Source: Solidesulfovibrio aerotolerans (GTDB taxonomy: Bacteria > Desulfobacterota > Desulfovibrionia > Desulfovibrionales > Desulfovibrionaceae). Taken from it: a DNA stretch of 64,000 nucleotides. The notes beneath the pieces were generated by a model. That model saw only the letters and a program-made list of their open reading frames with translations, searched no databases and was not told the origin of the DNA. How positions within the stretch are numbered: the first letter of the stretch is position 1; every line of letters begins with the position of its first letter. The DNA is taken from assembly GCF_009856865.1 (NCBI RefSeq), contig NZ_WVUD01000018.1:1-64000 (forward strand), read 5' to 3'. Shown here piece after piece: positions 10,702-51,395 of the stretch. The position numbers were made by a program, and so were the translations under genes.

Positions 10702-10763
10702 GCCTCCGGCGGCCGGGGGGGATAATCCCCCCCGGACCCCCTTGATGGGAAAAGTTTTTCAAG
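10702..10763 (+). repeat. GCCTCCGGC repeat, copy R1 (unpaired)
   Basis: The head GCCTCCGGCGGCC is followed by a perfect palindromic hairpin (CCGGGGGGGAT-A-ATCCCCCCCGG minus strand symmetric) and the tail GGACCCCCTTGAT...AAAGTTTTTCAAG. A purine-rich leader (GAAGGCAGAAGAT) precedes it. It lies just after the stop of the TiaS-like gene. Confidence 0.85.
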
Positions 10764-10781
10764 TGCGCGAGTCCAAGTCCG

Positions 10782-11129
10782 TTAGCCGCGGCTGCGATAC
10801 CGCTCCACAAAGGCCAACAACCCTTTAGCCTGACGCTCCATATACCCCACCCAGGCGTCGAGCACCTCGCGGCCCGCGTCGGTCACGACATACACCCGCT
10901 TGGCCGGGCCTGACCCCGTCGCGTCCCACTCGGACGCCACCAGCCCCTCGTCTTCCATCTGGCGCAAATGCCGGTAGATCATGCCCGGCGGCGCATCGCC
11001 CTTTAAAAATCCATACTCTCCGATATGTTGCAACAGCTCATAGCCGTGCGACCGGCCATCTAAAAGCGCCATCAGAATCGAGGGCTGCATGTAGCGCTCC
11101 TGCTTGCCGCCGCCAATTTTCTCGGACAT
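10782..11129 (-). CDS. PadR family transcriptional regulator
   Basis: 115 residues with the PadR winged helix: MQPSILMALLDGRSHGYELLQHI, then GMIYRHLRQMEDEGLV as recognition helix and wing, and a C-terminal dimerisation helix (MERQAKGLLAFVERY). The ATG at 11129 follows GGAGT with 7-base spacing; an in-frame GTG at 11138 has no room for a ribosome binding site. It is divergent from the small protein at 11215 and probably controls that gene and itself from the shared 85-base region. Confidence 0.88.
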   Translation of the reverse strand: MSEKIGGGKQERYMQPSILMALLDGRSHGYELLQHIGEYGFLKGDAPPGMIYRHLRQMEDEGLVASEWDATGSGPAKRVYVVTDAGREVLDAWVGYMERQAKGLLAFVERYRSRG

Positions 11130-11141
11130 CGTTCCCACTCC

Positions 11142-11170
11142 TTGACATAGATACTACAAGCACATATGTT
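11142..11170 (+). promoter_or_regulatory. near-consensus sigma70 promoter between PadR gene and small protein gene
   Basis: TTGACA (11142-11147), a 17-base spacer and TATGTT (11165-11170) drive the small protein gene. An inverted pair ACATA (11145-11149) / TATGT (11165-11169) spans both boxes, and an ACATATGT palindrome overlaps the -10. PadR proteins often bind ATGT/ACAT dyads, so this is a candidate PadR operator. Confidence 0.6.
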
Positions 11171-11214
11171 AATCTCAACATCCCAACAGGGCAATCGGCC
11201 CATCGGAGGACGAC

Positions 11215-11424
11215 ATGGCGAAGATTTTTGCGCGTGAGCGCCGCAAGATCGAACAGGGTGAAAAAAAGCCTCGGTTCCGCGTGGTGGCCGCCACAGGCGA
11301 CATCAAGTTTTTTGCCGAGCATATCCGCAAGCGCGAACTGGAAGCCATTGCCAAGGAAATCGGCGCGGATATCGTCTATCTGCCCACCGACCCGGCCGGC
11401 ACCGGCGGCGGGAAGACCGCGTAA
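11215..11424 (+). CDS. small conserved-looking protein of unknown function, PadR partner
   Basis: 69 residues, Lys/Arg-rich N-terminus (MAKIFARERRKIEQGEKKPR), then an alpha/beta segment FRVVAATGDIKFFAEHIRK and IAKEIGADIVYLPTD and a Gly-rich end. There is no signal peptide or membrane helix, so it is probably cytosolic. CGGAGG is upstream of the ATG. The consensus promoter and the divergent PadR gene suggest an effector-induced response, but the trigger is not visible. No family is recognised. Confidence 0.65.
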   Translation: MAKIFARERRKIEQGEKKPRFRVVAATGDIKFFAEHIRKRELEAIAKEIGADIVYLPTDPAGTGGGKTA

Positions 11425-11481
11425 GGTTAGAGACGACAAGGCGAGAAGAGACGCGACAAGAAGAGACGAAAAGAAAAGAAT

Positions 11482-11526
11482 GCCTCCGGCGGCCGGGAGG
11501 GGGTAACCCCCTCCCGGACCCTCCCT
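11482..11526 (+). repeat. GCCTCCGGC repeat, copy R2 (pairs with R3)
   Basis: Head GCCTCCGGCGGCC, hairpin of the GGGAGGGGG type (stem CCGGGAGGGGGT with ACCCCCTCCCGG), tail GGACCCTCCC. A long purine-rich leader precedes it. Confidence 0.85.
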
Positions 11527-11532
11527 TTCGGG

Positions 11533-11579
11533 ACGGCGCATTTTCCGGCCACGCTCTGCTTGGCCGGAAAATGCGCCGT
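11533..11579. repeat. perfect 19-bp inverted repeat, 9-base loop
   Basis: Arm 1 (11533-11551) is ACGGCGCATTTTCCGGCCA and arm 2 (11561-11579) is its exact reverse complement; loop 11552-11560. There is no T run. It could be a Rho-independent-like stop without U tract, a protein-binding site or a structured RNA. Confidence 0.9.
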
Positions 11580-11773
11580 TGCACTAAGGGGACAGGCAAA
11601 TGATTCATTTTTGATGGGCTGGCGAAGAGGGTAAAGCTCCCAAGTGCTTGCCCTGCCGCTTCTGTCTTCCCGCCTGTTCGGCCCAACGCGCAGGCCCAGA
11701 CGCCATCGTCCACCCTGTCCTGTCGCTCTTTCGCAAACCTGTTCGGCCCCGTCTCCGGGGCCGAGGGCAGCTT

Positions 11774-11843
11774 GGGGGCGGCATTTTCGGGCATCGGGTT
11801 GCCGGGCTTTGACGGCAGTCCGATGCCCGAAAATGCCGCCCCC
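11774..11843. repeat. perfect 24-bp inverted repeat, 22-base loop
   Basis: Arm 1 (11774-11797) starts GGGGGCGGCATTTTCGGG; arm 2 (11820-11843) is its exact reverse complement. The inner motif GGC-n-CATTTTC resembles the hairpin at 11533, so the two may be relatives. Confidence 0.9.
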
Positions 11844-11901
11844 ATCTTCGACAGCCTCCCGCCGCCGACCACCCCGCTCCCCGCTCGCCCCGCCTTCCCG
11901 C

Positions 11902-11941
11902 TGGGGGGTCCGGGGGGATCATCCCCCCGGCCGCCGGAGGC
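11902..11941 (-). repeat. GCCTCCGGC repeat, copy R3 (pairs with R2)
   Basis: Minus-orientation copy: head at 11941, hairpin CCGGGGGGAT/ATCCCCCCGG, tail GGACCCCCC. A pyrimidine-rich flank follows on the plus strand, complementary in style to the leader of other copies. It lies just past the 3' end of the minus-strand gene at 12008. Confidence 0.85.
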
Positions 11942-12862: not shown

Positions 12863-12889
12863 TGCGCCCTCTCTCTTGGATTTTTTTAA

Positions 12890-38127: not shown

Positions 38128-38859
38128 GTGCGCATCAAGATGTTGGAACTGCTTTCCGGCGCAGCCCAGGCGACCGGCACGGCTGTGGTCATTGACGTGT
38201 TTCGGGCCTGCTCTGTGGCCTGCTACGCCTTTGCCGGCGGGGTGGCGCGCATTTTGCCCGTGGACAGCGTTGAAGAGGCGCTGGCCCTGAAAGCCGCGCA
38301 TCCCGAGTATCTGCTGGCCGGGGAACGCCAGTGTCTCAAACCCGAAGGCTTTGATTTCGGCAACTCGCCAAGCGAAGTGGCGGCCGCCGATCTGGCCGGC
38401 CGCACCCTGGTCCATACCACCAGCGCCGGCACCCGGGGCCTGGTGGCCGCCATGGGCAGCGCCGAGCGGGTGCTGACCTGTTCCTTTGCCAACATGTCGG
38501 CCACGGCCGCCGCCCTTGCGGCCGCCGCGCCGGCCGAAATTTCCATTGTAGCCATGGGCAAGGCCGGGCTGCATTCCGCCCCGGAAGACCGTATGTGCGC
38601 CATGTTTCTGGCCAATCTGCTCCAGGATGTGCCCAACGCCTTTCAAGTCATCCCGGAGTTTTTGCGAAAAACGGCCAGCGCCGAGATCTTTTTCGGGGAC
38701 ACCGCCATTGTCCCGCAGGCCGATTTCGGACTCTGCCTGACCCTTGACGCCTTTGATTTCTTTTTGGAGGCCACCCGCGACCCCAAGGGGCGCCTGACCC
38801 TCCTGCGGCACGATGCCCCAACACCTTCGCCCCAGGCGGCTGTATCGTCCCCAGCCTGA
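38128..38859 (+). CDS. ComB-like 2-phosphosulfolactate phosphatase family protein
   Basis: 243 residues. VVIDVFRACSVACYAFAGG, LAGERQCLKPEGFDFGNSPSE split near residue 65-90, and VHTTSAGTRGLVAA match the ComB family (PF04029), magnesium-dependent acid phosphatases that remove phosphate from 2-phosphosulfolactate in coenzyme M synthesis. Nothing else in the window belongs to that pathway, and the relation may be to sulfolactate metabolism. The GTG at 38128 follows GGAGG with 7-base spacing. It is divergent from the proB side. Confidence 0.85.
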   Translation: MRIKMLELLSGAAQATGTAVVIDVFRACSVACYAFAGGVARILPVDSVEEALALKAAHPEYLLAGERQCLKPEGFDFGNSPSEVAAADLAGRTLVHTTSAGTRGLVAAMGSAERVLTCSFANMSATAAALAAAAPAEISIVAMGKAGLHSAPEDRMCAMFLANLLQDVPNAFQVIPEFLRKTASAEIFFGDTAIVPQADFGLCLTLDAFDFFLEATRDPKGRLTLLRHDAPTPSPQAAVSSPA

Positions 38860-38933
38860 CCGGGACCAGACGAGAGCGTTTCATGCGGCCCAGAGGCGGG
38901 CCGCGACCGGACAGCTATCAAGGAGCGGACGGC

Positions 38934-39917: not shown

Positions 39918-39927
39918 GGAGTTTGCA

Positions 39928-40143
39928 ATGGCCTTTTTTTCGCGCCTGCGGTTCGAGCCGACCACGGCCAAAAAGCTGGTCTGCCCGACCTGCAACGGAC
40001 CGCTCACCTACGACCGCACCTGCCTGGCCGTGATGCTCACCTGCCAGGGCTGCGGTGCCAGCTTCGATCCGGCCCGCTTCGTGGCCGAACTCGATGAGGA
40101 TTTCGACGAAGCCTACGCCAACGTGCCGCTCAACCGGATGTAG
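39928..40143 (+). CDS. small zinc-ribbon protein
   Basis: 71 residues with two CxxC pairs (LVCPTCNGPL and LTCQGCGASFD), a single zinc ribbon of the Trm112/UPF0434 type in size and spacing, and an acidic tail. AAGGAG lies 7 bases before the ATG; it begins 11 bases after the HD-GYP gene, so they are one operon. Function unknown. Confidence 0.75.
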   Translation: MAFFSRLRFEPTTAKKLVCPTCNGPLTYDRTCLAVMLTCQGCGASFDPARFVAELDEDFDEAYANVPLNRM

Positions 40144-40191
40144 ACGGCGCAGCGAAGAAAAGAAGATGCGAAGAAGAGAAGCATAAAGAGT

Positions 40192-40255
40192 GCCTCCGGC
40201 GGCTGGGGGGGATAATCCCCCCCAGACCCCCTTGAAGGGAGGGTTTTTTTCAAGG
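40192..40255 (+). repeat. GCCTCCGGC repeat, copy R7 (pairs with R8)
   Basis: Head GCCTCCGGCGGC then CTGGGGGGGAT-A-ATCCCCCCCAG. Compared with R1 the outer C-G pair is changed to T-A on both arms, a compensatory change. Tail CCCCCTTGAAGGGAGGG...TTTCAAGG. Confidence 0.85.
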
Positions 40256-40314
40256 CACCCCTGGCGTCGGCCGGCAATAAGGGGACGAGTGGACGGCGCG
40301 CCAGCTCCACTTGC

Positions 40315-40365
40315 CCCGTCAGGGAGGGTCCGGGAGGGGGTTACCCCCTCCCGGCCGCCGGAGGC
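40315..40365 (-). repeat. GCCTCCGGC repeat, copy R8 (pairs with R7)
   Basis: Minus-orientation copy with GGGAGGGGG-type hairpin; head ends at 40365, just before the ribosome binding site of the next gene. R7 and R8 bound a 174-base unit. Confidence 0.85.
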
Positions 40366-40390
40366 ATCCTATTTCATAGGGAGAAATACT

Positions 40391-40654
40391 ATGGCAGCGG
40401 GCGTTTGGGACGGCATCGACAAGGAACGCGTGGCCAAGGCCATGGTCACGGCCTATTTGAGCGACGAATATCTGGAAGCATTGGCGGCGATCAACAACGC
40501 CGAGACCCTGGCCGAACTGGTTGCGGCCCGGGAACAAATCAAAGAGCTTATGGCTTTGTGGCGCGAGGAAGCGCCGGAATACGCCTTTGTCATCGACGCA
40601 CTCTATCTCTTTTCGGACAAGATCCAGCTGCAACTGACAGGGGAGACGGAGTGA
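40391..40654 (+). CDS. small helical protein of unknown function
   Basis: 87 residues, acidic, all-helical (VAKAMVTAYLSDEYLEALAAI, LVAAREQIKELMALWREEAPE). GGGAGAA precedes the ATG at 40391; the frame continues upstream only through repeat R8. No family is recognised. It sits upstream of the Mn2+ riboswitch. Confidence 0.6.
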   Translation: MAAGVWDGIDKERVAKAMVTAYLSDEYLEALAAINNAETLAELVAAREQIKELMALWREEAPEYAFVIDALYLFSDKIQLQLTGETE

Positions 40655-40673
40655 TCAGCAGCGAGCGCGACAG

Positions 40674-40702
40674 TTGACAGCCCCCGCCCCAGCGACTACC
40701 TT
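40674..40702 (+). promoter_or_regulatory. sigma70 promoter of the Mn2+ riboswitch transcript
   Basis: TTGACA (40674-40679), 17-base spacer, TACCTT (40697-40702). The expected start falls about at the first base of the riboswitch P1 stem, supporting both calls. Confidence 0.55.
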
Positions 40703-40710
40703 TATCTCTC

Positions 40711-40813
40711 CCAAAGGGGAGTAGCTGTTTCGGATCAGGGTCAACATCACTGCGGCGCGTCTGCCGCCTGGCCCTGTCGTCGGTTCCTTGGAACCGGCCA
40801 GCGAGACCTTTGG
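40711..40813 (+). promoter_or_regulatory. yybP-ykoY (Mn2+) riboswitch
   Basis: P1 is formed by CCAAAGG (40711-40717) and CCTTTGG (40807-40813). The 5' side continues with the conserved loop AAGGGGAGTAGC and the 3' side with GCGAGACCTTT, both diagnostic for this class. Two internal hairpins lie between. A terminator that reuses the 3' P1 strand follows, so Mn2+ binding should block termination and switch the gene on. The downstream gene is a cation exchanger, in line with known targets. Confidence 0.9.
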
Positions 40814-40846
40814 CATGCTTCTGCGCGTGCCAAGGTCTTTTTTTTT
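40805..40846 (+). terminator. riboswitch-controlled intrinsic terminator
   Basis: GACCTTTGGCATGC (40805-40818) pairs with GCGTGCCAAGGTC (40825-40837) and is followed by nine T. Its 5' arm contains the 3' strand of P1, giving mutually exclusive structures. Confidence 0.9.
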
Positions 40847-40872
40847 GGCCGCGACAACCCCCAGGAGACCTC

Positions 40873-42096
40873 ATGAAAAAACTGCTTCCCCTGTATCTGG
40901 CCCTGGCCGCCACCCTGCCCGGCCTGGCTTGCTTTCTCTTCTCCGTCCATCCCTCGCCACCTGCCACCGCCGCCCTGGCCGGTCTGGCCATTCTCGGAGC
41001 CTCCTTTTTGCTCCTGTGGGCCTGCGATGTGGCCCAGACCGACATCCCGCAAGCCCTGGCCCTGGCCGTGGTGGCGCTTATCGCCGTTTTGCCGGAATAC
41101 GCCGTGGACATGTATTTCACCTGGATGGCCGGCCAGCAGCCTGACTCCAACTACGCCCACTACGCCATCGCCAACATGACCGGGGCCAATCGCCTGCTCA
41201 TCGGCGTGGCCTGGACCCTGGTCGCCTTCCTGGTCTGGTGGCGCACCCGCAAACCCGTCATCCTGGAGGGCGAACGCCGCACCGAGGTGCTCTTCCTCGG
41301 TCTGGCCACGGCCTACGCCATCTCCATCCCGCTGTCCGGGTCGCTGACCTGGGTGGACGGCGTGGTGCTTATGAGCCTCTACGTCGTCTATATCGTCATC
41401 GCCGCCCGGCGCGAGTGTGAAGAGCCGGAACTGGAAGGCGTGGCCTGCGTCATCGGTACCCTGCCCAAGGGGCTGCGCCGCCTGTCCACGTTGGGTCTGT
41501 TTCTCTTTGCCGCCGCCGTCATCGTGGCCAATGCCGAGGCCTTTAGCGAAGGGCTGGTCGCCACGGGCCGGATTTTCGGGGTCAATGAATTCCTGCTGGT
41601 GCAGTGGCTGGCCCCCATCGCCTCGGAAGCCCCGGAAGTCATCGTGGCCGTCATGTTTGCCCTGCGCGGCATGGGCGGCATGGCTCTTGGCAGCCTCATC
41701 TCCTCCAAGCTCAACCAGTGGACGCTGCTTGTCGGCATGATCCCGGCCGTCTACGGCGTGTCTTCGGGCAGCTTCAGCGTGCCCATTCCCTTGGACGGCG
41801 TGCAGATGCACGAAATCATGCTCACCGCCGCCCAGTCGCTTTTGGCTGTCGGCCTGCTGGCCGGCCTGCGCCTGGATATTCGCGGCGCGTTGCTGCTGTT
41901 CGGCCTGTTTCTCGGCCAGTTCCTGGCCCCGGCCGTACCGGAAAGTGTGTGGGCGCTGTTGCCGGGCCATCTCTCCGGCAGCCAGGTCCATTTCTTTTTC
42001 AGCTTCCTCTACGTCGGCCTTTTCATCATCATGCTGCCGCGCATCGGGCCGCAACTCGTGGCCCTTATCCGCCCGCACCGCCGCGCCGCCTCTTGA
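40873..42096 (+). CDS. CaCA-family cation antiporter, Mn2+ riboswitch-controlled
   Basis: 407 residues, about ten transmembrane helices. Two alpha repeats are visible: LAVVALIAVLPEYAVDMYF...NMTGANRLLIG and LAPIASEAPEVIVAVMFALRG...LGSLISSKLNQWTLL, the ion-binding motifs of Na+/Ca2+ exchangers. CAGGAG lies 5 bases before the ATG at 40873. The riboswitch in the leader argues for Mn2+ (and perhaps Ca2+) export rather than a housekeeping Ca2+ role. Confidence 0.88.
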   Translation: MKKLLPLYLALAATLPGLACFLFSVHPSPPATAALAGLAILGASFLLLWACDVAQTDIPQALALAVVALIAVLPEYAVDMYFTWMAGQQPDSNYAHYAIANMTGANRLLIGVAWTLVAFLVWWRTRKPVILEGERRTEVLFLGLATAYAISIPLSGSLTWVDGVVLMSLYVVYIVIAARRECEEPELEGVACVIGTLPKGLRRLSTLGLFLFAAAVIVANAEAFSEGLVATGRIFGVNEFLLVQWLAPIASEAPEVIVAVMFALRGMGGMALGSLISSKLNQWTLLVGMIPAVYGVSSGSFSVPIPLDGVQMHEIMLTAAQSLLAVGLLAGLRLDIRGALLLFGLFLGQFLAPAVPESVWALLPGHLSGSQVHFFFSFLYVGLFIIMLPRIGPQLVALIRPHRRAAS

Positions 42097-42183
42097 CGCC
42101 AGGGAGCCCCGGCCCTACAAACCGCCCCCGCCCCGGGAAATCACCCCGGGGCGGATCGCCTGCCGCCAAGGAGGTCCGCCGCC

Positions 42184-42912
42184 ATGGACCAGGGTTTTGA
42201 ACTCCCCCTTTACCTGGATCTCTTCGCCGTCTTTTTGATGGCCGCCACCGGGGCCATTGAGGCCATCCGCCGGAAATTCGACCTCGTGGGCCTCCTTGGC
42301 CTGTCCCTGGCCACCGGCCTGGGCGGGGCGCTCATTCGCGACGGCATCTTCCTGCAATCCGGCGTTCCGGCTGTGGTGCGAAACCCGCAGTACCTGTACG
42401 CCGTGGCCGGCGCGGCCCTGGCCTGCCTGGTTTTCGGCCGCCGGGCGCTGCTCTCCGAACGGCTGGTGGCCCTGGTCGATGCCGCAGCACTTGGGGCCTA
42501 TGCCGTGGTCGGCATGGAAAAGTCCCTGGCTTTCGGCCTGGATTTCGCGGCAGCCGTGCTGGTCGGCACGGTCAACGCCTGCGGCGGCGGCATCCTGCGC
42601 GACGTGCTCATGCGTGAGGAGCCCATGGTCTTTCGGCCGGGGCAGTTTTACGGTCTGGCCGCCCTGCTCGGCTGCCTGACCTACCCCTTTTTACGCCAAA
42701 GCCTGGGACTTCCCCCGCTGTCGGCCGCCCTTGGCACCATCCTTTTCACATTTTGCCTGCGCGTTCTCGCCATCACGCGCAACTGGCGCACGGCCCCGGT
42801 GCGCGACACGGGCCTGTTTCGCCGCCGCCGCCCGTCCGTCCACGTCTTGACGGCCCGGGGCAAAACGGGTCTACCCAAGGCAGGCTCGCCCCCAGGCGGC
42901 CACGACCTCTAG
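42184..42912 (+). CDS. TRIC-type (UPF0126) membrane channel protein
   Basis: 242 residues, about seven transmembrane helices with two inverted repeats bearing GLGGALIRDGIF and NACGGGILRDVLM, the pattern of UPF0126/YadS proteins, prokaryotic relatives of TRIC cation channels. The last 40 residues are a positive cytosolic tail. AAGGAGG precedes the ATG. Following the Mn2+-regulated exchanger by 87 bases, it may be in the same transcript. Confidence 0.9.
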   Translation: MDQGFELPLYLDLFAVFLMAATGAIEAIRRKFDLVGLLGLSLATGLGGALIRDGIFLQSGVPAVVRNPQYLYAVAGAALACLVFGRRALLSERLVALVDAAALGAYAVVGMEKSLAFGLDFAAAVLVGTVNACGGGILRDVLMREEPMVFRPGQFYGLAALLGCLTYPFLRQSLGLPPLSAALGTILFTFCLRVLAITRNWRTAPVRDTGLFRRRRPSVHVLTARGKTGLPKAGSPPGGHDL

Positions 42913-42928
42913 CAAGGGGAATTAAGCC

Positions 42929-43567
42929 GTGACCCGTCCCATCTCCACGCTTTTTTGCGATGTCGGCGGCGTCCTTTTGACCAACGGCTGGGACCGTCAA
43001 GCCCGGGCCGAGGCCGCCCGCGTCTTTCATCTGGACGCCGCCGAAACCGACGAACGCCACCACCTGACCTTCGACGCTTACGAGGAAGGCAAGCTCTCTC
43101 TGGACGATTATCTCGACCGCACGGTCTTTTACGTGCCGCGCTCCTTTACCAAAGACGCCTTCCGCGACTTCATGCTGTCGCGCTCCAAACCCCTGCCCGA
43201 GATGTTTGGCTATGTGCGCGATTTAAAAGCCCGCCACGGCATAAAGATCGTCATCGTCAACAACGAGGGCCGCGAACTCAACCAATACCGCATCAAGGCC
43301 TTTGGCCTGGGCTGTTTCGTGGACGCCTTTGTCTCTTCCTGCTTTGTCCACATGCGCAAACCCGACGCCGATATCTTCCGGGTGGCCCTGGACATCGCCC
43401 AGACCGATCCGGCCGACGCCGCCTATATTGATGACCGGGCCATGTTCGTGGACGTGGCAGCCACCCTGGGCATCCGGGGCGTGGTCCACCGCGACGCGGC
43501 CACCACGGCCAGGGAACTTATGGCCCACGGCGGCTTTGCCGCCTCCTGCCCGGGCGGCCTCGGCTGA
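42929..43567 (+). CDS. HAD superfamily hydrolase
   Basis: 212 residues. Motif I LFCDVGGVLL has the nucleophile Asp, but the second Asp is Gly, as in HAD-IA proteins of the epoxide-hydrolase N-terminal type. Motif II IVIVNNEG and motif III/IV KPDADIFRVAL...YIDDRAMFVD are present. The start is a GTG at 42929. It is a general phosphatase-like fold; substrate unknown. The next 190 bases are very GC-rich and carry short tandem CGGGG-type words but no gene. Confidence 0.85.
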   Translation: MTRPISTLFCDVGGVLLTNGWDRQARAEAARVFHLDAAETDERHHLTFDAYEEGKLSLDDYLDRTVFYVPRSFTKDAFRDFMLSRSKPLPEMFGYVRDLKARHGIKIVIVNNEGRELNQYRIKAFGLGCFVDAFVSSCFVHMRKPDADIFRVALDIAQTDPADAAYIDDRAMFVDVAATLGIRGVVHRDAATTARELMAHGGFAASCPGGLG

Positions 43568-43757
43568 GCCTGCGGGGCGACGCGCCGGGGCCGGGTATCG
43601 GGGTGAGGAGTCGGGGCGGCGCGCCGGGGGCGGTGGAGCCAGGGCGACATGGCGGCCGGCGGGATATCGGGGCGGGGGTTCCAAGGCCGGCCTCTTTCCG
43701 GTACGGTGCGGGGGTAAATCAAACGGAGAGCCTACGGCCTCTCCAAGGAGTCGGTGC

Positions 43758-44123
43758 ATGACCAAGATCGCCATTCCCTCCCGCGACGGCCAGGTGGACG
43801 AACACTTCGGCCATTGCGGCTATTTTACCGTGCTGACCATTGGCCCGGACAAGACCGTGACGGCCGAAGAGACCTTTGCCCCGCCGGCGGAATGCGGCTG
43901 CAAGTCCAATCTGGTCAACGATCTGCTCGGCATGGGCGTGACCACGCTCATTGCCGGCAACATGGGCCAGGGCGCGGCCAACAAGCTGCGCCAGGCCGGC
44001 ATGACGGTCATTCGCGGTGCCGCCGGCCCGGTCCATGAGGCTGCTGCGGCCTATCTGGCCGGCAATCTGGCCGACCGCGACGAACTGTGCATGGCCCACG
44101 GCCACAACTGCCTCGACGACTAG
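43758..44123 (+). CDS. NifX/NafY-like iron-molybdenum cofactor-binding family protein
   Basis: 121 residues of the dinitrogenase iron-molybdenum cofactor family (PF02579): IAIPSRDGQVDEHFGHCGYF, ECGCKSNLVNDLLGMGV and IAGNMGQGAANKLRQAGM, with a Cys/His-rich end (CMAHGHNC). Members carry FeMo-co or related clusters, and short stand-alone ones also occur in organisms without nitrogenase. AAGGAG precedes the ATG at 43758. No nif structural genes are in the window. Confidence 0.88.
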   Translation: MTKIAIPSRDGQVDEHFGHCGYFTVLTIGPDKTVTAEETFAPPAECGCKSNLVNDLLGMGVTTLIAGNMGQGAANKLRQAGMTVIRGAAGPVHEAAAAYLAGNLADRDELCMAHGHNCLDD

Positions 44124-44162
44124 TTGGCCGGCGCAGCGCGCCAACCACTGCCTTGATTGCCT

Positions 44163-44192
44163 GGGAGCCATGGAAGCATGGCTCCCTTTTTT
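44163..44192 (+). terminator. Rho-independent terminator after the NifX-like gene
   Basis: GGGAGCCATG, loop GAAG, CATGGCTCCC, then six T. A perfect 10-bp stem. Confidence 0.92.
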
Positions 44193-44388
44193 GAGTTGTC
44201 TGGCCGCCGCCTTTGGCATCGAACCGGAACAGTTGCGGCTGTAATTTCTTACACTCCCGGCACACTTCCAGACACATTAAAAATCCCCATAAAACCAGCA
44301 CGTTGCCCGTAAATGCGTCAGCCGGGATTCTCCTCAAACCGTTCCTAATTCCTCCAAACCACCTTGATCCCACTTCTTTTTGCCGCAG
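44193..44388 (+). other. intergenic region, nothing recognised
   Basis: Between the NifX terminator and the cobalamin-riboswitch promoter. AT-richer than average; no reading frame with a ribosome binding site and no clear structure. Confidence 0.6.
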
Positions 44389-44419
44389 TTGACACAAGAC
44401 GCGCATGCTCCCATATAAC
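44389..44419 (+). promoter_or_regulatory. promoter of the nrdD transcript
   Basis: TTGACA (44389-44394) and an AT-rich CATATAAC (44412-44419). With CATATA as -10 the spacer is 17 bases; the expected start then coincides with the first base of riboswitch P1. Confidence 0.6.
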
Positions 44420-44424
44420 ACGAA

Positions 44425-44629
44425 GCGTTGGTGTCCGCCCCCGACAGCCCGTCGGGCGGCGGAACCGAAAGAGGGAATACCGGTGCGAGTCCGGAACTGC
44501 CCCGCAGCGGTGAGCGAAAACGAACCCCGCAACAAAGCACTGGACGCGCGGCGTCCGGGAAGCGACGGGTAGTAGATACGCGGCCCGCATACGGCCGAAA
44601 TGTTCGCCAGTCCGAAGACCTGCCAACGC
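44425..44629 (+). promoter_or_regulatory. cobalamin (AdoCbl) riboswitch
   Basis: P1 GCGTTGG (44425-44431) pairs with CCAACGC (44623-44629). The conserved core GGGAATACCGGTGCGAGTCCGG is split around 44474-44495, followed by the B12 box-like ACTGCCCCGCAGCGGTGA and the 3' AGTCCGAAGACCTGCC. An expression platform lies between 44630 and 44764; a terminator with T run (GCGCGCGTTTTTT) is suggested at about 44695-44710. Confidence 0.95.
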
Positions 44630-44764
44630 CCGTCGGGACCAATCCGACGTCAGTCCAGGGAGCCTCGAGGGAGGGTTGCCCGGTCCAGCCAGGACGCCGC
44701 GCGCGTTTTTTGGCTGCCGTTGCCCTTCCCACTATCGCTAATGGTCTCGCCAGGGAGAACTCGC

Positions 44765-46960
44765 ATGTCCGAGCCGATGGAACACGGCAATTTGGCCCTT
44801 TATCCCGATTCCGACCCCACCGCCAAGGCCGCCGCCGCCACTCCGGCCGAGCAGCCCGCCGTTGCCGCCGTGCCGTCGCGCATCCGCAAACGCCACGGGG
44901 AAATCGTCGCCTTCGACGCCGACAAAATCCTCTCCGCCATGCGCCGCGCCGGTGCAGTCACCGGCGAATTCGGCGACGACGAAGCCTGGCTGTTAACCGC
45001 CCAGGCCGTCAAAGTCCTCTCCCACCGCTTTGTGGGCCAGATCCCGGATATCGAGCGCATCCAGGACATCGTGGAGCAAGTGCTCGTCTCGGCCAACCAC
45101 TTCCGCACCATGCGCGCCTATTCCGTCTACCGCGAACAGCGCGCCCGGCTTCGCGAAGACAAAAAAACCGTGGTGGACGTGGCCGCCTCCATCAACGAAT
45201 ACCTCGACCGCCAGGATTGGCGCGTCTCGGCCAACGCCAACCAGGGCTATTCACTCGGCGGCCTGATCCTGAACGTCTCGGGCAAAGTGGTGGCCAACTA
45301 CTGGCTTTCCCACGTCTATCCGCCCGAAGTCGGCGCTGCCCACCGCGACGGCGATGTCCATATCCACGACCTCGACATGCTGTGCGGCTACTGCGCCGGC
45401 TGGTCGTTGCGCATGCTGTTGACCGAAGGCTTAAACGGCGTGCCCGGCAAGGTCGAAGCCAAACCGCCCAAACACCTCTCCAGCGCCGTGGGCCAGATCG
45501 TCAATTTTCTCGGCACGCTGCAAAACGAATGGGCCGGTGCCCAGGCCTTTTCCTCCTTTGACACCTACATGGCCCCGTTTATCCGCAAGGACAATCTGGG
45601 CTATGACGAAGTGCGCCAGTGCATCCAGGAACTGATCTACAACCTGAATGTGCCGTCGCGCTGGGGCACCCAGACGCCCTTTACCAACCTGACCTTCGAC
45701 TGGACCTGCCCTGAGGATCTGGCCAAGGATCATCCCCTCATCGGCGGCGTAGAGATGCCGTTCACCTACGGCGAACTGCAAGTCGAAATGGACATGATCA
45801 ACCGGGCCTACATCGAAGTTATGACCGCCGGCGACGCCAAGGGGCGCGTTTTCACCTTCCCCATTCCGACCTACAATATCACCAAGGATTTCCCCTGGCA
45901 GTCGCCCAATGTGGACATCCTGTTTGAAATGACGGCCAAATATGGGCTGCCCTACTTCCAGAATTTCCTCAATTCCGACCTCACCCCCAACATGGTGCGG
46001 TCCATGTGCTGCCGTTTGCAGCTCGATTTGCGCGAACTGCTCAAGCGCGGCAACGGCCTTTTCGGCAGCGCCGAACAGACCGGGTCCGTGGGCGTGGTCA
46101 CCATCAACTGCGCCCGCCTGGGCTTCACCCATCGCGGCGACGAGGCCGGTCTGCTCGCCCGGCTCGACACCCTGCTCGACATCGCCCGCACCAGCCTGGA
46201 GATCAAACGCAAGGAGATCACCCGCCGCATGGACGCCGGGCTGTTCCCCTACACCAAGCGCTATCTGGGGTCGCTGCGCAACCACTTCTCGACCATCGGT
46301 GTCAACGGCATCAACGAAATGATCCGCAACTTCACCGGCGGCACCGAAGATATCACTTCGGCAAACGGCCACGCCATGGCCGTACGGCTGCTCGACCACG
46401 TGCGCGAACGCATGACCGAGTTCCAGGAAGAGACCGGCCACCTCTATAACCTCGAAGCAACGCCGGCCGAAGGCACCACCTACCGCTTCGCCCGCGAAGA
46501 CAAAAAACGCTTCCCGGCCATCCTCCAGGCCGGTACGCCGGAAAAGCCGTATTATACGAACTCCTCCCAACTGCCGGTGGGTTTTACCGACGACCCCTTC
46601 GAGGCCCTTTCCCGCCAGGAGGAACTCCAGCGCAAATACACCGGCGGCACGGTGCTCCACCTCTACATGGGCGAACGCGTCACCAGCGCCGAAGCCTGCA
46701 AAAAGCTGGTCCAGCGCTCCCTGTCCGGCTTTGCCCTGCCCTACGTCACCGTGACGCCGACGTTTTCCATCTGCGACGTTCACGGCTACCTCGACGGTGA
46801 ACACATCACCTGCCCGACCTGCGCCGCCGAAGGGCGCGAACAGGCCTGCGAAATCTGGACCCGCGTCATGGGCTACTACCGGCCCAAATCGGCCTTTAAC
46901 GTCGGCAAACAGGGCGAATACGACGACCGGGTGTGCTTTAGCGAACCAGTTGCGATGTAA
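44765..46960 (+). CDS. nrdD: anaerobic (class III) ribonucleoside-triphosphate reductase
   Basis: 731 residues. An ATP-cone allosteric domain (about 38-130; RIRKRHGEIVAFDADKILSAM) precedes the catalytic barrel (HRDGDVHIHDLDMLCGYC, GSVGVVTINCARLGF). Near the C-terminus lies the four-Cys zinc site region (ICDVHGYLDGEHITCPTC) and the glycyl radical motif RVMGYY with Gly about residue 703. It makes dNTPs without O2. The cobalamin riboswitch in its leader should shut it off when B12 is plentiful, presumably because a B12-dependent class II enzyme exists elsewhere. GGGAG lies 8 bases before the ATG. Confidence 0.95.
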   Translation: MSEPMEHGNLALYPDSDPTAKAAAATPAEQPAVAAVPSRIRKRHGEIVAFDADKILSAMRRAGAVTGEFGDDEAWLLTAQAVKVLSHRFVGQIPDIERIQDIVEQVLVSANHFRTMRAYSVYREQRARLREDKKTVVDVAASINEYLDRQDWRVSANANQGYSLGGLILNVSGKVVANYWLSHVYPPEVGAAHRDGDVHIHDLDMLCGYCAGWSLRMLLTEGLNGVPGKVEAKPPKHLSSAVGQIVNFLGTLQNEWAGAQAFSSFDTYMAPFIRKDNLGYDEVRQCIQELIYNLNVPSRWGTQTPFTNLTFDWTCPEDLAKDHPLIGGVEMPFTYGELQVEMDMINRAYIEVMTAGDAKGRVFTFPIPTYNITKDFPWQSPNVDILFEMTAKYGLPYFQNFLNSDLTPNMVRSMCCRLQLDLRELLKRGNGLFGSAEQTGSVGVVTINCARLGFTHRGDEAGLLARLDTLLDIARTSLEIKRKEITRRMDAGLFPYTKRYLGSLRNHFSTIGVNGINEMIRNFTGGTEDITSANGHAMAVRLLDHVRERMTEFQEETGHLYNLEATPAEGTTYRFAREDKKRFPAILQAGTPEKPYYTNSSQLPVGFTDDPFEALSRQEELQRKYTGGTVLHLYMGERVTSAEACKKLVQRSLSGFALPYVTVTPTFSICDVHGYLDGEHITCPTCAAEGREQACEIWTRVMGYYRPKSAFNVGKQGEYDDRVCFSEPVAM

Positions 46961-46980
46961 GAAGAACGGAAGGCGAAGAG

Positions 46981-47042
46981 GCCTCCGGCGGCCGGGGGCC
47001 TGAGGCCCCCGGACCCCCCATCGAGAGAAGCTTTTCAAGGGT
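46981..47042 (+). repeat. GCCTCCGGC repeat, copy R9 (unpaired)
   Basis: Head GCCTCCGGCGG then CCGGGGGCCT-GAGGCCCCCGG hairpin (stem differs from R1 on both arms), tail GGACCCCCCATCGAGAGAAG...TTTCAAGGG. Purine leader GAAGAACGGAAGGCGAAGAG. Directly after nrdD. Confidence 0.85.
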
Positions 47043-47051
47043 TTTACGCAT

Positions 47052-47100
47052 AGGCCGGCATGGCGACGACACGGGGTCGTGCCATACCGGCCTTTTCTTT
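47052..47100 (+). terminator. terminator between nrdD and nrdG
   Basis: AGGCCGGCATGGC pairs with GCCATACCGGCCT (one mismatch), inner ACGAC/GTCGT extends it, followed by TTTTCTTT. It lies after repeat R9. The nrdG gene therefore depends on read-through or its own promoter. Confidence 0.75.
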
Positions 47101-47161
47101 ATCGGGACGGCGGTCTGCCGCCCACTTGCCCCCGGTCGCCGGGAACGCTAAGGGACGCCCC

Positions 47162-47860
47162 ATGAACGGACTGATTATCGGCGGCGTAACGCCCCTTTCC
47201 ACCCTCGATTTCCCCGACGCCCTGGCCGCTGTCGTCTATTGCCAGGGCTGCCCCTGGGGCTGCCCCTACTGCCACAACGAACCCTTGCGCGAAATAACCG
47301 ACCAGGCCGAGCGCGACGGAGCCTCGGTGCTCACCTGGCTCAAAGGCCGACGGGGACTCCTGGACGCGGTCGTTTTCTCCGGCGGCGAACCCACCCTCCA
47401 GGACGGGCTTGGCCCCATGCTCGACGCCGTGCGCGCCCTGGGCTTCAAAGTCGGCCTGCATACCACCGGCATGTACCCCGACGCCCTGGCCGCAATCCTG
47501 CCGCTGTGCGACTGGGTGGGCCTCGACGTCAAAGCCCCCCGCGCCGCCTACGATCGCATCACCGGCGTGGCCCGCAGCGGCGAGGCGGCGTTTGCCAGCC
47601 TCACCCTGCTCCTGCAAAGCGGCGTGCCCTGCGAAACGCGCACCACCTGGCACCCGGGCCTTTTGACCGAAGCCGAACTGGCGGAACTGGCCGGCGAACT
47701 GGCCGCAGCCGACGCCGGACGCTGGGTCATCCAGGGCTTTCGTCCCGATGGCTGCACCGACACCACCCTCTCGGCCGCCGGACCAACCGTCTTTCCGCCC
47801 GATCTCATAGCCCGACTCCAAACCGCCGCCCCGCGCCTGACCATCACCGCGAGAGTGTAG
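47162..47860 (+). CDS. nrdG: anaerobic ribonucleotide reductase activating protein (radical SAM)
   Basis: 232 residues. The radical SAM cluster motif is Cys30-x3-Cys34-x2-Cys37 inside YCQGCPWGCPYCHN, followed by FSGGEPTLQDGLGPML and LDVKAPRAAYDRITG. It installs the glycyl radical in NrdD. The sequence is of the longer anaerobic NrdG subtype rather than the 154-residue E. coli form. The ATG at 47162 was chosen over a 34-residue upstream extension that crosses the terminator. Confidence 0.92.
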   Translation: MNGLIIGGVTPLSTLDFPDALAAVVYCQGCPWGCPYCHNEPLREITDQAERDGASVLTWLKGRRGLLDAVVFSGGEPTLQDGLGPMLDAVRALGFKVGLHTTGMYPDALAAILPLCDWVGLDVKAPRAAYDRITGVARSGEAAFASLTLLLQSGVPCETRTTWHPGLLTEAELAELAGELAAADAGRWVIQGFRPDGCTDTTLSAAGPTVFPPDLIARLQTAAPRLTITARV

Positions 47861-47879
47861 GAGGGGGAAGGCAGAAGAG

Positions 47880-47941
47880 GCCTCCGGCGGCCGGGGGGAT
47901 GATCCCCCCGGACCCCCATCGGGAAAAGTTTTTAAGGGGGT
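47880..47941 (+). repeat. GCCTCCGGC repeat, copy R10 (pairs with R11)
   Basis: Head GCCTCCGGCGGCC, hairpin CCGGGGGGAT-G-ATCCCCCCGG, tail ATCGGGAAAAGTTTTTAAGGGGG. Purine leader GAGGGGGAAGGCAGAAGAG. Confidence 0.85.
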
Positions 47942-48033
47942 TGTGCTCGTCGCAACAGGCCCCTTTGTCCCTGGCAGGGAGGGGCCGGGAGGGACTCCCC
48001 CCTCCCGCCTCGCGGCAACGCCGTCCCCCTATA

Positions 48034-48089
48034 ACCCCTTGCCTTCCAGGAGGGATTCCAAAGGGGCCACCCCTTTGGCCGCCGGAGGC
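48034..48089 (-). repeat. GCCTCCGGC repeat, copy R11, variant B (pairs with R10)
   Basis: Minus-orientation copy with the CCAAAGGGG/CCCCTTTGG hairpin and GAATCCCTCCTGGAAGGCAAGGGG tail, as in R5. R10 and R11 bound a 210-base unit; a degenerate G/C-run hairpin lies between (about 47975-48015). Confidence 0.8.
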
Positions 48090-48116
48090 ACTCTTCAATT
48101 CAATAAAGGGGACGAC

Positions 48117-48542
48117 ATGGACACGCTGACCATCACCGCCCGGGTGGCCATTCCCTTGGCCGAAATTTCGTTTATTGCGGCCCGCAGCGGCGGTCCCGGC
48201 GGCCAGCACGTCAACACCACCAGCACCAAGGTGACGCTGCTTTTTGATGTGCAGGCCTCGCCGAGCCTGACCGAATACGACAAGGCCCGCATCGGCCAGG
48301 CTCTCGAAGGTCGCATCGGCAAGGACGGGGTGCTGCGCGTGGTGTCCCAGTCCACCCGCAGCCAGTTCGCCAACAAGGAACTCGCCCTGGAGCGGTTTGC
48401 CGCCTTGCTGCGCGCCGCCCTGACCCCGGTCGCCCCTCGCAAGAAAACCCGCGTCTCCCTGGCTGCCAAACGCCGCCGGGTGGATGACAAGAAGCGCCAG
48501 GGCGCGCGCAAACGCCAGCGCAGCGTCAGCACGGACGATTGA
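48117..48542 (+). CDS. arfB: alternative ribosome-rescue factor B (peptidyl-tRNA hydrolase)
   Basis: 141 residues. The catalytic GGQ lies in AARSGGPGGQHVNTTSTKV, and the C-terminus is a Lys/Arg-rich tail (RKKTRVSLAAKRRRVDDKKRQGARKRQR) that threads into the mRNA channel of stalled ribosomes. The length and lack of the RF2 codon-recognition domain separate it from release factors. The ATG at 48117 was chosen; the frame continues upstream through repeats. Confidence 0.93.
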   Translation: MDTLTITARVAIPLAEISFIAARSGGPGGQHVNTTSTKVTLLFDVQASPSLTEYDKARIGQALEGRIGKDGVLRVVSQSTRSQFANKELALERFAALLRAALTPVAPRKKTRVSLAAKRRRVDDKKRQGARKRQRSVSTDD

Positions 48543-48695
48543 CCCGAGGGCGTAACACCGCAGCCGGCACTGACGCACAAGACCGCTCGTAGAATGGGGC
48601 ACGCCTTGACGCCCTCCACCGCCCCGGGCTAGGTGAACCCAGTTTCCGGCCTCGGGCCGGTACGACGGCAACGCCCGATCCGGAGCACCCAACAC

Positions 48696-49112
48696 ATGTC
48701 CTCACTGGAACACAAACGGCAGAAAAGCGCGTTCTGGCTCTCCGCCAGCCGCGATCAGGCCCGCGACACCGGCATGGCCCTGGTGCTGGTCAGCCTCATC
48801 GTCTTTTTCATCACCCGCGAAATCCGCTACGTGACCATTGCCACAGGACTTTTGCTCCTGGACATGATCGCCCCGGCCCTGTTCAAACCGGCGGCCAAGG
48901 TCTGGTTTGGCCTGTCCCATGTTCTGGGCACGGTGATGTCCAAGGTGATCCTGGCCCTGGTCTTTTTTGTTGTGCTCACGCCCATGGGCCTGCTGCGGGG
49001 CCTGCTTGGCAAAGACCCCATGCGCGTGCGGCAGTTCAAACAGGGGACGGACTCGGTTTTCCGGGTGCGCGACCACGCCTTTGGCCCGGCCGACATCGAA
49101 CAGCCCTTTTAA
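48696..49112 (+). CDS. SxtJ-family membrane protein
   Basis: 138 residues with three to four hydrophobic helices (MALVLVSLIVFFI, VTIATGLLLLDMIAPALF, VILALVFFVVLTPMGLL), matching SxtJ, a small membrane protein found next to carbamoyltransferases. The ATG at 48696 follows GGAG with 9-base spacing. It is the first gene of a three-gene cassette with the 49-residue protein and the carbamoyltransferase. Its role is unknown. Confidence 0.85.
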   Translation: MSSLEHKRQKSAFWLSASRDQARDTGMALVLVSLIVFFITREIRYVTIATGLLLLDMIAPALFKPAAKVWFGLSHVLGTVMSKVILALVFFVVLTPMGLLRGLLGKDPMRVRQFKQGTDSVFRVRDHAFGPADIEQPF

Positions 49113-49187
49113 GGCAACGCCCGGGATATCCGACATTTCCGCCGTCCGCGCCCGCAACCACCGGACTGGACGGCATCTGGAGGCATA

Positions 49188-49337
49188 ATGGAATTTATAA
49201 GCGAACTTTGGGGCTTTTTGCGCGCACGGAAAAAATTCTGGCTGCTGCCCATCATCCTGGTGCTGCTGCTGTTCGGCGTGCTGGTTGTCCTGACCAGCGG
49301 CTCGGCCGTGGCCCCCTTCATCTATACGCTGTTTTAG
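49188..49337 (+). CDS. DUF5989-type small membrane protein (49 aa)
   Basis: Starts MEFISELWGFLRARKKFWLL and continues with one transmembrane helix and the end GSAVAPFIYTLF, the pattern of DUF5989 proteins that sit between SxtJ and carbamoyltransferase genes. Ribosome binding site TGGAGG lies 6 bases before the ATG. It is easy to miss because of its size. 75 bases separate it from SxtJ and 12 from the carbamoyltransferase start. Confidence 0.9.
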   Translation: MEFISELWGFLRARKKFWLLPIILVLLLFGVLVVLTSGSAVAPFIYTLF

Positions 49338-49349
49338 CCGGTCCCGCCC

Positions 49350-51215
49350 ATGCCCGAATACATCCTGGGGATCTCCGCCTATTACCACGACTCCGCCGCT
49401 GCGCTTTTGCGCGACGGCGTGGTCGTGGCCGCCGCCCACGAGGAACGTTTCACCCGCGTCAAGCACGACGCCGGGTTTCCCCGCAAGGCTGCGGCCTATG
49501 TGCTGGCCGAGGCCGGCATTGAACTGGCGGAACTGGCGGCCGTCGTTTTTTACGACAAGCCCTATCTCAAGTTCGAGCGGTTGCTCGAAACCTACCACGG
49601 CTTTGCCCCACGCGGCCTTCGCAGCTTCCTGTCGGCCATTCCGGTCTGGATCAAGGAAAAGCTGTTCATGAAAAAGATGCTGCGCGAGGAGCTGGCCGAA
49701 CTCGGCCCGGGCAGGCCGCGCATCCTTTTTCCCGAACACCACCTTTCCCACGCCGCCTCGGCCTTTTATCCCTCGCCCTTTGACGAGGCCGCCATCCTCA
49801 CCATCGACGGCGTGGGCGAATGGTCCACCACCACCATCGGCCTTGGGCGCGGCAAGGATATCACCTTCCTGCGCGAGCTGGATTTCCCCCATTCCGTGGG
49901 CCTGCTCTATTCCGCCTTCACCTACTACTGCGGTTTTAAAGTCAATTCCGGCGAATACAAGCTCATGGGCCTGGCTCCCTACGGCATCGACGGCTCGGCG
50001 CGGGTGGAGGAATTTAAGGCCAAGATCCTCGAAACCCTGGTGGATCTGCGCCCGGACGGCTCGCTGCTGCTCAACATGGCCTATTTCAACTTCGCCACCG
50101 GCCTGACCATGTGCCGCGACGCCAAGTGGGAGGCCCTTTTCGGCCTGCCCCGCCGGGCCGCCGAGTCCGAACTCGGCCAGGAGCACATGGACCTCGCCTT
50201 GGCCATCCAGCAGATCACCGAAGAGGTGGTGCTGCGGCTGGCCAAAACGGCCCGGGAACTGACGGGTTGCAAGAACCTCGTCATGGCCGGCGGCGTGGCT
50301 TTAAACTGCGTGGCCAACGGCAAACTGCTGCGCGCCGGCATTTTCGATGACGTGTGGATTCAGCCGGCGGCCGGCGATGCCGGCGGTGCCCTCGGGGCCG
50401 CCCTGGCCGCCTGGCATATCTGGGGCGAAAACGACCGCACGCCCTTGCCGGCCGGGGCGCTGGACCGCATGGCCGGTTCCTACCTCGGACCGCAGTTCAC
50501 CCGGGCCGACGCCCTGCGTCTGGCCGCCCGCCGGGATGCGCCGTATACGCTTTATGAAGATTTCGGCGCGTTGTGCGACGCTGTGGCCGATCTGCTGGCC
50601 GACGGCAAGGTCGTTGGCTGGTTCCAGGGCCGCATGGAATACGGCCCGCGCGCCCTTGGCGGCCGCTCCATCCTGGGTGATCCGCGAAACCCGGAGATGC
50701 AGAAAAAGCTCAATCTCAAAATCAAATACCGCGAAGGCTTTCGGCCCTTTGCCCCGTCGGTTGCAGCCGAGGCGGTGTCCGACTATTTCATCCAGGACCG
50801 CCCCTCGCCCTACATGCTGCTGGTGGCCCCGGTGGCCGACGCCCTGCGCCATCCCCTGCCCCAGGGCTACTGGCAGATGCCCATGTTCGAGCGGCTATAT
50901 GTCAACCGCTCCACCCTCCCGGCCATCACCCACGTGGACTTCTCCGCCCGCATCCAGACCGTCCACGCCGATACCAACCCGCGCTACCACCAGCTCATCA
51001 CCACCTTCGGCGCGCGCCACGGCTGCCCCATGGTGGTCAACACGAGCTTTAACGTGCGCGGCGAGCCTATCGTATGCACCCCCGAGGACGCCTACCGCTG
51101 CTTTATGCGCACGGAAATGGACTACCTTGTCATCGGCGACTGCCTCTTCTGTAAAGACGGCCAGCCCGCGTACCCCGAAACCGGCGACTGGCGCGGCGAA
51201 TACGAACTCGACTGA
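49350..51215 (+). CDS. NodU/CmcH-family carbamoyltransferase
   Basis: 621 residues. ISAYYHDSAAALLRDG, FPEHHLSHAASAFYPSPF, ILTIDGVGEWSTTT and NSGEYKLMGLAPYG are the Kae1-like and metal/ATP-binding motifs; the C-terminal YrdC-like part has GPRALGGRSILGDPRNP and MVVNTSFNVRGEPIVCTP. These enzymes carbamoylate a hydroxyl group of a glycan or natural product with carbamoyl phosphate. Together with SxtJ and the 49-residue protein it forms a widespread cassette, most likely acting on surface polysaccharide. No biosynthetic cluster surrounds it. Confidence 0.9.
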   Translation: MPEYILGISAYYHDSAAALLRDGVVVAAAHEERFTRVKHDAGFPRKAAAYVLAEAGIELAELAAVVFYDKPYLKFERLLETYHGFAPRGLRSFLSAIPVWIKEKLFMKKMLREELAELGPGRPRILFPEHHLSHAASAFYPSPFDEAAILTIDGVGEWSTTTIGLGRGKDITFLRELDFPHSVGLLYSAFTYYCGFKVNSGEYKLMGLAPYGIDGSARVEEFKAKILETLVDLRPDGSLLLNMAYFNFATGLTMCRDAKWEALFGLPRRAAESELGQEHMDLALAIQQITEEVVLRLAKTARELTGCKNLVMAGGVALNCVANGKLLRAGIFDDVWIQPAAGDAGGALGAALAAWHIWGENDRTPLPAGALDRMAGSYLGPQFTRADALRLAARRDAPYTLYEDFGALCDAVADLLADGKVVGWFQGRMEYGPRALGGRSILGDPRNPEMQKKLNLKIKYREGFRPFAPSVAAEAVSDYFIQDRPSPYMLLVAPVADALRHPLPQGYWQMPMFERLYVNRSTLPAITHVDFSARIQTVHADTNPRYHQLITTFGARHGCPMVVNTSFNVRGEPIVCTPEDAYRCFMRTEMDYLVIGDCLFCKDGQPAYPETGDWRGEYELD

Positions 51216-51228
51216 TAGAATTAAGAAT

Positions 51229-51295
51229 GCCTCCGGCGGCCGGGGGGGATAATCCCCCCCGGACCCCCTTGATAGGAGAAGTTTTTCAAGGGGTT
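51229..51295 (+). repeat. GCCTCCGGC repeat, copy R12 (pairs with R13)
   Basis: Head GCCTCCGGCGGCC, hairpin identical to R1, tail CCCCCTTGATAGGAGAAGTTTTTCAAGGGG whose ends CCCCTTGA and TCAAGGGG can pair as a second stem. Confidence 0.85.
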
Positions 51296-51340
51296 ATTGG
51301 GGCTGGCGAGGCGGCCCCGACGAATGTCCCGTTCCCCTTA

Positions 51341-51395
51341 ACCCCTTGCCTTCAGGTGGGATTCCAAAGGGCTCAGCCCTTTGGCCGCCGGAGGC
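51341..51395 (-). repeat. GCCTCCGGC repeat, copy R13, variant B (pairs with R12)
   Basis: Minus-orientation copy with hairpin AAAGGGCTGAGCCCTTT; again both arms are changed relative to R5/R11. R12 and R13 bound a 167-base unit after the carbamoyltransferase gene. Confidence 0.8.

Follow-up and report, generated by a model that had tools for sequence, protein, structure and literature searches.

The window analysed here is a 64,000-nt stretch of Solidesulfovibrio aerotolerans (positions 1 to 64,000 of contig NZ_WVUD01000018.1, assembly GCF_009856865.1), and it carries 13 copies of a repeat in which a fixed head is followed directly by a hairpin. We propose that these copies probably belong to a family of short, non-autonomous mobile elements that resemble miniature inverted-repeat transposable elements (MITEs) and are bounded by inverted head + hairpin ends. 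This proposal rests on the size of the family, the excess of neighbouring copies lying head-outward, the homology of whole units at unrelated loci, the borders of that homology at the heads and the near-empty sites seen in relatives.

All 13 copies claimed by the initial annotation were recovered, 12 with an exact head and the copy at 40192 with a final T. The positions given there are correct, those of minus-strand copies marking the opposite end to ours. Heads lie at 10702, 11482, 25524, 36264, 40192, 46981, 47880 and 51229 on the plus strand and at 11941, 36439, 40365, 48089 and 51395 on the minus strand. With at most two mismatches, the head matched 40 times in the window, compared with a mean of 16.2 and a maximum of 25 in shuffled sequence. 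The five inverted units measured 460, 176, 174, 210 and 167 bp, as had been claimed, and the three lone copies (10702, 25524 and 46981) each lay in sense orientation after a stop codon according to home-made gene calls. A purine-rich leader, said to be common to all copies, preceded most of them; the copy at 36264 has a T-run before its head, and that at 40365 has only a short purine stretch.

Each end consists of a fixed head of 11–12 nt (GCCTCCGGCGGC), the hairpin and then a C-rich tail. The 11-nt head GCCTCCGGCGG abuts the stem, and no GTAG (or CGTC) tetranucleotide is present at the hairpin. The hairpins form subtypes with differing stems. Among copies from the analysed genome and its relatives with a stem score of at least 6, 198 of 201 stems were perfect, although end mismatches may be hidden in about 12 short ones, and none contained a G.U pair. 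Loops of 3 nt were found in 177 of the 198, most commonly TGA (98) and TAA (38). The absence of G.U pairs is unusual for a selected RNA. Moreover, one orthologous copy in two species that are 95% identical differed by a C-G/T-A change at the stem base. Perfect stems free of G.U pairs, together with this compensated change, would fit DNA-level copying or selection better than RNA pairing.

Two variants of this anatomy were observed. A metagenome-assembled genome (MAG), Desulfovibrio Ct408, has 171 heads in a 1.5-Mb assembly and carries tandem hairpin modules (stem + C-rich linker) after the head (L176, L195 and L230), as do some copies in the analysed genome. Headless long hairpins with T- or A-rich inner stems and C-rich tails were found in two members of the genus, G004 and G011 (L111, L110 and L109), at some gene ends where other genomes carry headed copies.

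The repeat extends well beyond this stretch. The exact 13-mer head occurred 305 times in the 4.6-Mb analysed genome (G000), compared with 0 for the reversed control, and 117–363 times in each of 14 genomes of the genus. A search of 395 genomes of the phylum with a 12-mer head revealed strong amplification in three genera (g1, g2 and g4), all from the family to which the window belongs. Outside those genera, G047 was an outlier (76 heads vs 5 in the control), a few other genomes, such as f14 members, showed a mild excess, and the majority were near the control level.

Inverted pairs exceeded random orientation: 37 of 44 neighbours within 700 bp in G000 lay head-outward, as did 6 of 6 in G003 and the only pair in G005. 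The resulting units had no fixed length in G000 (144–509 bp). A homologue covering more than 80% of the length was found at another, unrelated locus for 23 of 44 units; in the window, unit 36264–36439 has a near full-length homologue at C41:24818-24989 (81%), whose ends are A2 and C instead of C and B, and unit 51229–51395 has one at C72:61002-61148 (78%). Some homologous unit bodies carried different end hairpins. In 49 homologous unit pairs (98 ends), identity was 0.89–1.00 in the head and dropped beyond it to the level of unrelated leaders, and the leaders of homologous units were no more alike than those of unrelated units. The heads thus mark the limits of the copied block, whereas the leader resembles sequence of the target or its surroundings.

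The two ends of a unit carried unlike hairpins. End subtypes differed in all five window pairs; not one of the 32 intergenic pairs in G000 combined two ends of a single subtype (expected 6.7, P 0.0003), and among 55 pooled units there was no case of identical end hairpins over the first 20 nt (expected 6.2, P 0.0013), the heads alone being common to both. Both ends of one G003 unit fell into the catch-all class 'A?', yet their sequences were not identical. Identical pairs might have been hidden by short-read assembly, since a head lay within 400 bp in 2 of the 15 contig ends reached, compared with 4% of random windows. The few-contig assemblies of G003 and G005 held 0 identical pairs among 7, too few to settle the question of an assembly artefact.

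In predicted single-strand DNA folds, the heads paired in 54 of 55 units, and both end hairpins were also kept in 32. The following mechanism can be envisaged. Two ends in inverted orientation would bound one unit, and their heads may pair on one DNA strand and thereby close a clover-leaf structure, with one end hairpin forming each leaf. An enzyme acting in trans, not necessarily Y1 or a REP-associated tyrosine transposase (RAYT; REP, repetitive extragenic palindrome), would recognise the folded form and copy or move the unit. Insertion would occur into purine-rich sequence, mostly just past stop codons, where little harm is done. Unlike end hairpins could let each fold on itself rather than pair across the unit, and recombination might swap ends between units. 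Single copies would be either elements in their own right or remnants.

Empty sites in relatives, on which a mobile origin would turn, were sought at window sites. At site 47860/48116, which holds unit 47880–48089, 9 of 13 relatives were comparable: the site was near-empty (14–18 bp gap) in G001, G010, G012 and G013, carried a single copy in three relatives, a pair in G008 and a pair with one degenerate end in G009. At site 46960/47161, the same stop codon was followed by subtype A3 in G000, B in G002, G005 and G007, and A1 in G003; the gap measured 40 bp in G013 and contained other, longer sequence in G001, G006, G008 and G010. Template switching at the DNA level together with gene conversion among intergenic palindromes could keep hairpins perfect and spread them with little true transposition. 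Such a process would account for perfect stems with compensated changes, for differing subtypes at the same gene end across species and for homologous unit bodies with different end hairpins. Alone, however, it explains neither the occupied versus near-empty sites nor whole-unit homology with unrelated flanks, and we regard it as very improbable.

In G009 (L096), the gap orthologous to window positions 40143–40390 is 955 bp long, and the repeat is replaced there by different sequence that may be coding. Copies inside genes were considered as a guide to exact insertion borders and set aside, the best case, a sigma-54 activator, having its insert in nearly every relative. The linker before the DNA-binding domain of this activator (L079:2219-3364, on contig C41 of G000) encodes two tandem in-frame copies with PPEAS motifs; PPEA was present in 13 of 14 genus orthologues, and linker length varied across the genus.

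Gene context was determined in 1.24 Mb of G000 using the home-made gene calls. Of 133 copies of the 11-nt head, 8 lay within called genes. Among the 125 others, 97 followed a stop codon (median distance 31 bp), 24 were antisense in co-directional gaps, 3 lay in divergent gaps and 1 had no called gene behind it. Copies were present in 39 of 127 convergent, 47 of 350 co-directional and 2 of 147 divergent gaps of at least 60 bp. Single copies in co-directional gaps were mostly sense, with sense:antisense ratios of 24:6 in G000, 14:4 in G002, 3:2 in G003 and 7:2 in G005. After stop codons, purines made up 76–100% of positions −20 to −2 before the head, except for 51% at −8. In copies before start codons, a clear purine run (85–96%) was confined to positions −7 to −2.

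This placement, including the sense bias, would also be expected if each copy were a functional 3'-end element of the preceding gene, a terminator or an mRNA-stabilising hairpin, and pairs came from convergent genes. U-tract terminators were found at 4 of 96 gene ends with a copy and at 91 of 517 without (16 of 517 when shuffled), a comparison in which the 130-base search window favours the low figure if an insert displaces the terminator. At gene ends, the element may take the place of a terminator, or its presence may be tolerated where termination does not require one. A scan of positions 36000–52000 detected 24 terminator-like sites (14.9 in shuffles, standard deviation 3.6); 6 of them overlap copies or units, and 3 of these 6 lie in tails of sense copies (40229, 47907 and 36399), which combine a hairpin weaker than the main stem with a T-run. 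That the same gene end may bear a different subtype in another species agrees with this explanation as well. However, no T-tract follows the main stem (on the sense strand, the next 10 nt contain a mean of 1.4 T; on the other strand, the head itself comes next), and 14 of the 47 occupied co-directional gaps hold a head-outward pair in which the second copy precedes a start codon in antisense orientation. Together with the recurrence at unrelated loci of units sharing internal sequence and the lack of G.U pairs in 201 stems, these observations make a 3'-end function unlikely as the origin of the copies.

The search was extended to other phyla. A T-form pattern for gut Firmicutes had 0 matches in genome contigs. 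A looser pattern, head + AAGGG stem, reached other phyla among named genomes and gave at least 107 matching stretches. Among the 80 matches listed, classed by title, 62 came from Desulfovibrionales or Deltaproteobacteria, 4 from one Alphaproteobacteria MAG and 3 from MAGs named Proteobacteria. The remaining 11 were from Bacillota: Oscillibacter (1), Neglectibacter (1), which we take to belong to this phylum, bacterium D16-76 (2), assigned through its place in the order of Oscillibacter G411, and a Selenomonadaceae MAG (7). In 14 carriers picked from the pattern matches, heads versus control ranged from 11 vs 0 to 403 vs 11; because these genomes were picked for matching, such counts show amplification, not prevalence. 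Across 295 genomes of Oscillibacter's order, counts were high only in Oscillibacter (403 vs 11) and D16-76 (57 vs 1). Six more had 16–24 heads vs 0–9, and others at such a level have comparable controls; the distribution across this order is patchy. A search of plasmids and phages returned one weak place in Novosphingobium and no other match.

In 334 kb of Oscillibacter G411, 70 copies were found, with hairpins mostly different from those of G000; one subtype forms a repeat about 95 bp long that contains two hairpins. All 11 close pairs lay head-outward, and in no pair did the hairpin classes of the two ends coincide (expected 2.4, P 0.07). Five units of about 260–278 bp, picked from the 11 for sharing both end types, can be aligned over their entire length, although their flanks are different. 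As MAGs, the records of Oscillibacter, Selenomonadaceae and Alphaproteobacteria could include stray contigs; against this, each host has hairpins and leaders of its own kind, and two further carriers, Neglectibacter X58 and D16-76, do not bear the MAG label. We tentatively suggest, as a possibility that we would rate somewhat below even, that GCCTCCGGCGG-tagged hairpins form a third superfamily of tagged palindromes beside the GTAG and CGTC REPs, with obligatorily unlike end hairpins, non-Y1 machinery, horizontal transfer across Thermodesulfobacteriota, Bacillota and Alphaproteobacteria, and bursts in single lineages such as one Oscillibacter.

Matches to PF01797 (Y1_Tnp) were present in 13 of 25 carrier genomes, a count in which G009 and G408, with the same Y1_Tnp place and score, are probably one genome counted twice. 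The 12 carriers without a match include the two richest in heads, G003 (363 exact 13-mers) and Oscillibacter G411 (403 exact 12-mers). G000 has two matches, one being an intact 140-aa Y1_Tnp; both are on contigs other than that of the window, and neither adjoins a head. The statement that the window contains no transposase therefore holds for Y1_Tnp, the sole family scanned. A RAYT gene flanked by the repeat, which the initial annotation had proposed to look for, was not found: 0 of 26 Y1_Tnp loci (2 from G000 and 24 from other genomes, with at most about 1–1.6 kb per side and L091 partly masked by 660 N) had a head + hairpin, and some held a head-like 11-mer.

Of the REPIN (REP doublet forming hairpins) or MITE layout first put forward, the MITE-like part stands, with head-outward units, inverted ends, homologues at unrelated loci and near-empty sites. 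The three outcomes that the initial annotation named as refuting it (confinement to this stretch, no excess of inverted pairs and no empty sites in relatives) were all contradicted by the results. The REPIN label fails, because there is no GTAG tag and no RAYT was found beside the repeat, 12 of 25 carriers lack Y1_Tnp, unit length is not fixed and the ends are unlike. The units could nevertheless be true REPINs whose RAYT has diverged, has been lost or is missing from the assemblies. In the excerpts of PMC8266576, the tagged, perfect palindromes with 3-nt loops find a parallel in group 3 REPs of S. maltophilia, and the hetero-pairs in the y-z1/y-z2 bacterial interspersed mosaic elements (BIMEs) of Escherichia coli; the intact Y1_Tnp of G000 would also suit such an origin. 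We give it little credence, given the carriers without Y1_Tnp, the Y1 loci devoid of head + hairpin and the missing GTAG tag.

Several observations weigh against a family of MITE-like mobile elements. Pairs are rare in some relatives, with 0 in 220 kb of G002 (22 copies) and 1 in G005, and a near full-length homologue is lacking for 21 of 44 units. Unit length tracks gap length (r 0.75), which is also expected of gene-anchored elements, and the predicted fold retains neither of the end hairpins in 20 of 55 units. No target-site duplication was definable at the units: flanks viewed by eye showed no constant direct repeat, in a comparison lacking near-identical strains with a clean empty site. 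No transposase or autonomous copy was recognised among 25 head-bounded open reading frame candidates (up to 3.5 kb, in sampled sequence), which were rejected by eye as host genes or spurious frames. Between G002 and G005 (95% identical), usable clusters numbered 6 of 22 in one direction and 7 of 16 in the other, synteny being broken elsewhere. All 7 comparable G005 clusters were occupied in both genomes, with one head mismatch, and the comparison thus revealed no recent movement; turnover does take place, but slowly at this scale. Oscillibacter has less regular stems (58 of 69 perfect, with loops of 4 nt in 36 and of 3 nt in 31), and its copies show a weaker preference for positions after stop codons (43 of 68, 1 of the 70 copies, inside a called gene, being set aside), with 19 sense and 14 antisense single copies in co-directional gaps. 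Taking these points into account, we still consider the mobile-element interpretation the probable one.

Within the window, the single copy at 10702–10740 (plus strand, subtype A1) has head GCCTCCGGCGG, stem CCGGGGGGGA and loop TAA, and starts about 48 bp past a stop codon. The other single copies, also on the plus strand, are an A2 copy at 25524–25560, about 46 bp past a stop codon, and an A3 copy at 46981–47020, about 21 bp past the stop codon of the anaerobic ribonucleotide reductase gene. The 460-bp unit (11482–11941) has ends B (+) and A2 (−), lies between convergent genes and contains two long internal palindromes; its purine-rich leader (11426–11481, plus strand) spans the distance from stop codon to head. 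These palindromes (11530–11850) are near-perfect and distinct from the end hairpins, and similar ones stand behind several other B-type copies. The 176-bp unit (36264–36439) has ends C (+) and B (−) and is flanked by two minus-strand genes. The 174-bp unit (40192–40365), flanked by two plus-strand genes, has ends A1 (+) and B (−), its A1 end being a T-A variant at the second stem pair. The remaining units are that of 210 bp (47880–48089), with ends A2 (+) and C (−), and that of 167 bp (51229–51395), with ends A1 (+) and C (−) and convergent genes on either side.

Rfam at gathering cut-offs gave no match except one cobalamin riboswitch. This riboswitch (44412–44641) lies just 5' of the anaerobic ribonucleotide reductase gene (44765–46960, NRDD), which is followed by a radical-SAM gene (47162–47860). 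The anaerobic reductase class is B12-independent, though a B12-sensing riboswitch precedes this gene.

If the mobile-element interpretation is correct, palindromic mobile repeats of bacteria extend beyond the RAYT world, and an enzyme mobilising them in several phyla awaits discovery. The rule of unlike end hairpins would be a testable link between DNA folding and mobility. As the family places hairpins in 39 of the 127 convergent gaps sampled in G000, it also matters when 3' ends are read.

Searches of an open-licence library yielded no paper on this repeat, as judged from titles and the opening lines of abstracts. MITEs such as Correia or ERIC are short and intergenic, with inverted ends and no coding capacity; the present units differ from them in having a strong local hairpin at both ends, and neither target duplication nor parent transposon was found. 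CGTC-tagged REPs are likewise palindromes with a tag that occur in distantly related species and have no transposase dedicated to them, as given in part of the text of Di Nocera (2013; PMC3733652), and the tag differs here; the main text of that paper, its longer printed sequences and figures not being searched, has no word starting with Desulfovibrio, Clostridi or GCCTCC. According to the excerpts of Bertels and Rainey (2011; PMC3116915), REPINs are inverted doublets of palindromic repeats that spread as a unit, with singlets as remnants and a predicted closing hairpin giving a 'clover' form. Our units share the intergenic palindromic inverted doublets and the predicted clover-type fold. In contrast, REPIN GI doublets have a set spacing of 71 bp between 16-mers (PMC3116915), whereas unit length varies here, the end hairpins differ with only the heads in common, and no RAYT was found beside the repeat. 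As described in part of PMC8266576, E. coli BIMEs are mosaics that combine two distinct, inversely oriented REP types (y-z1, y-z2), and group 3 REPs, as in S. maltophilia, are perfect palindromes with 3–4-nt loops behind a fixed tag. The two ends of our units differ, as in these BIMEs; unlike BIMEs and group 3 REPs, the units bear the tag GCCTCCGGCGG instead of GTAG, have no RAYT that we could find and contain extra internal sequence and hairpins. The element works like a BIME or a REPIN, with MITE-like borders, and 'MITE-like' is the better word for it.

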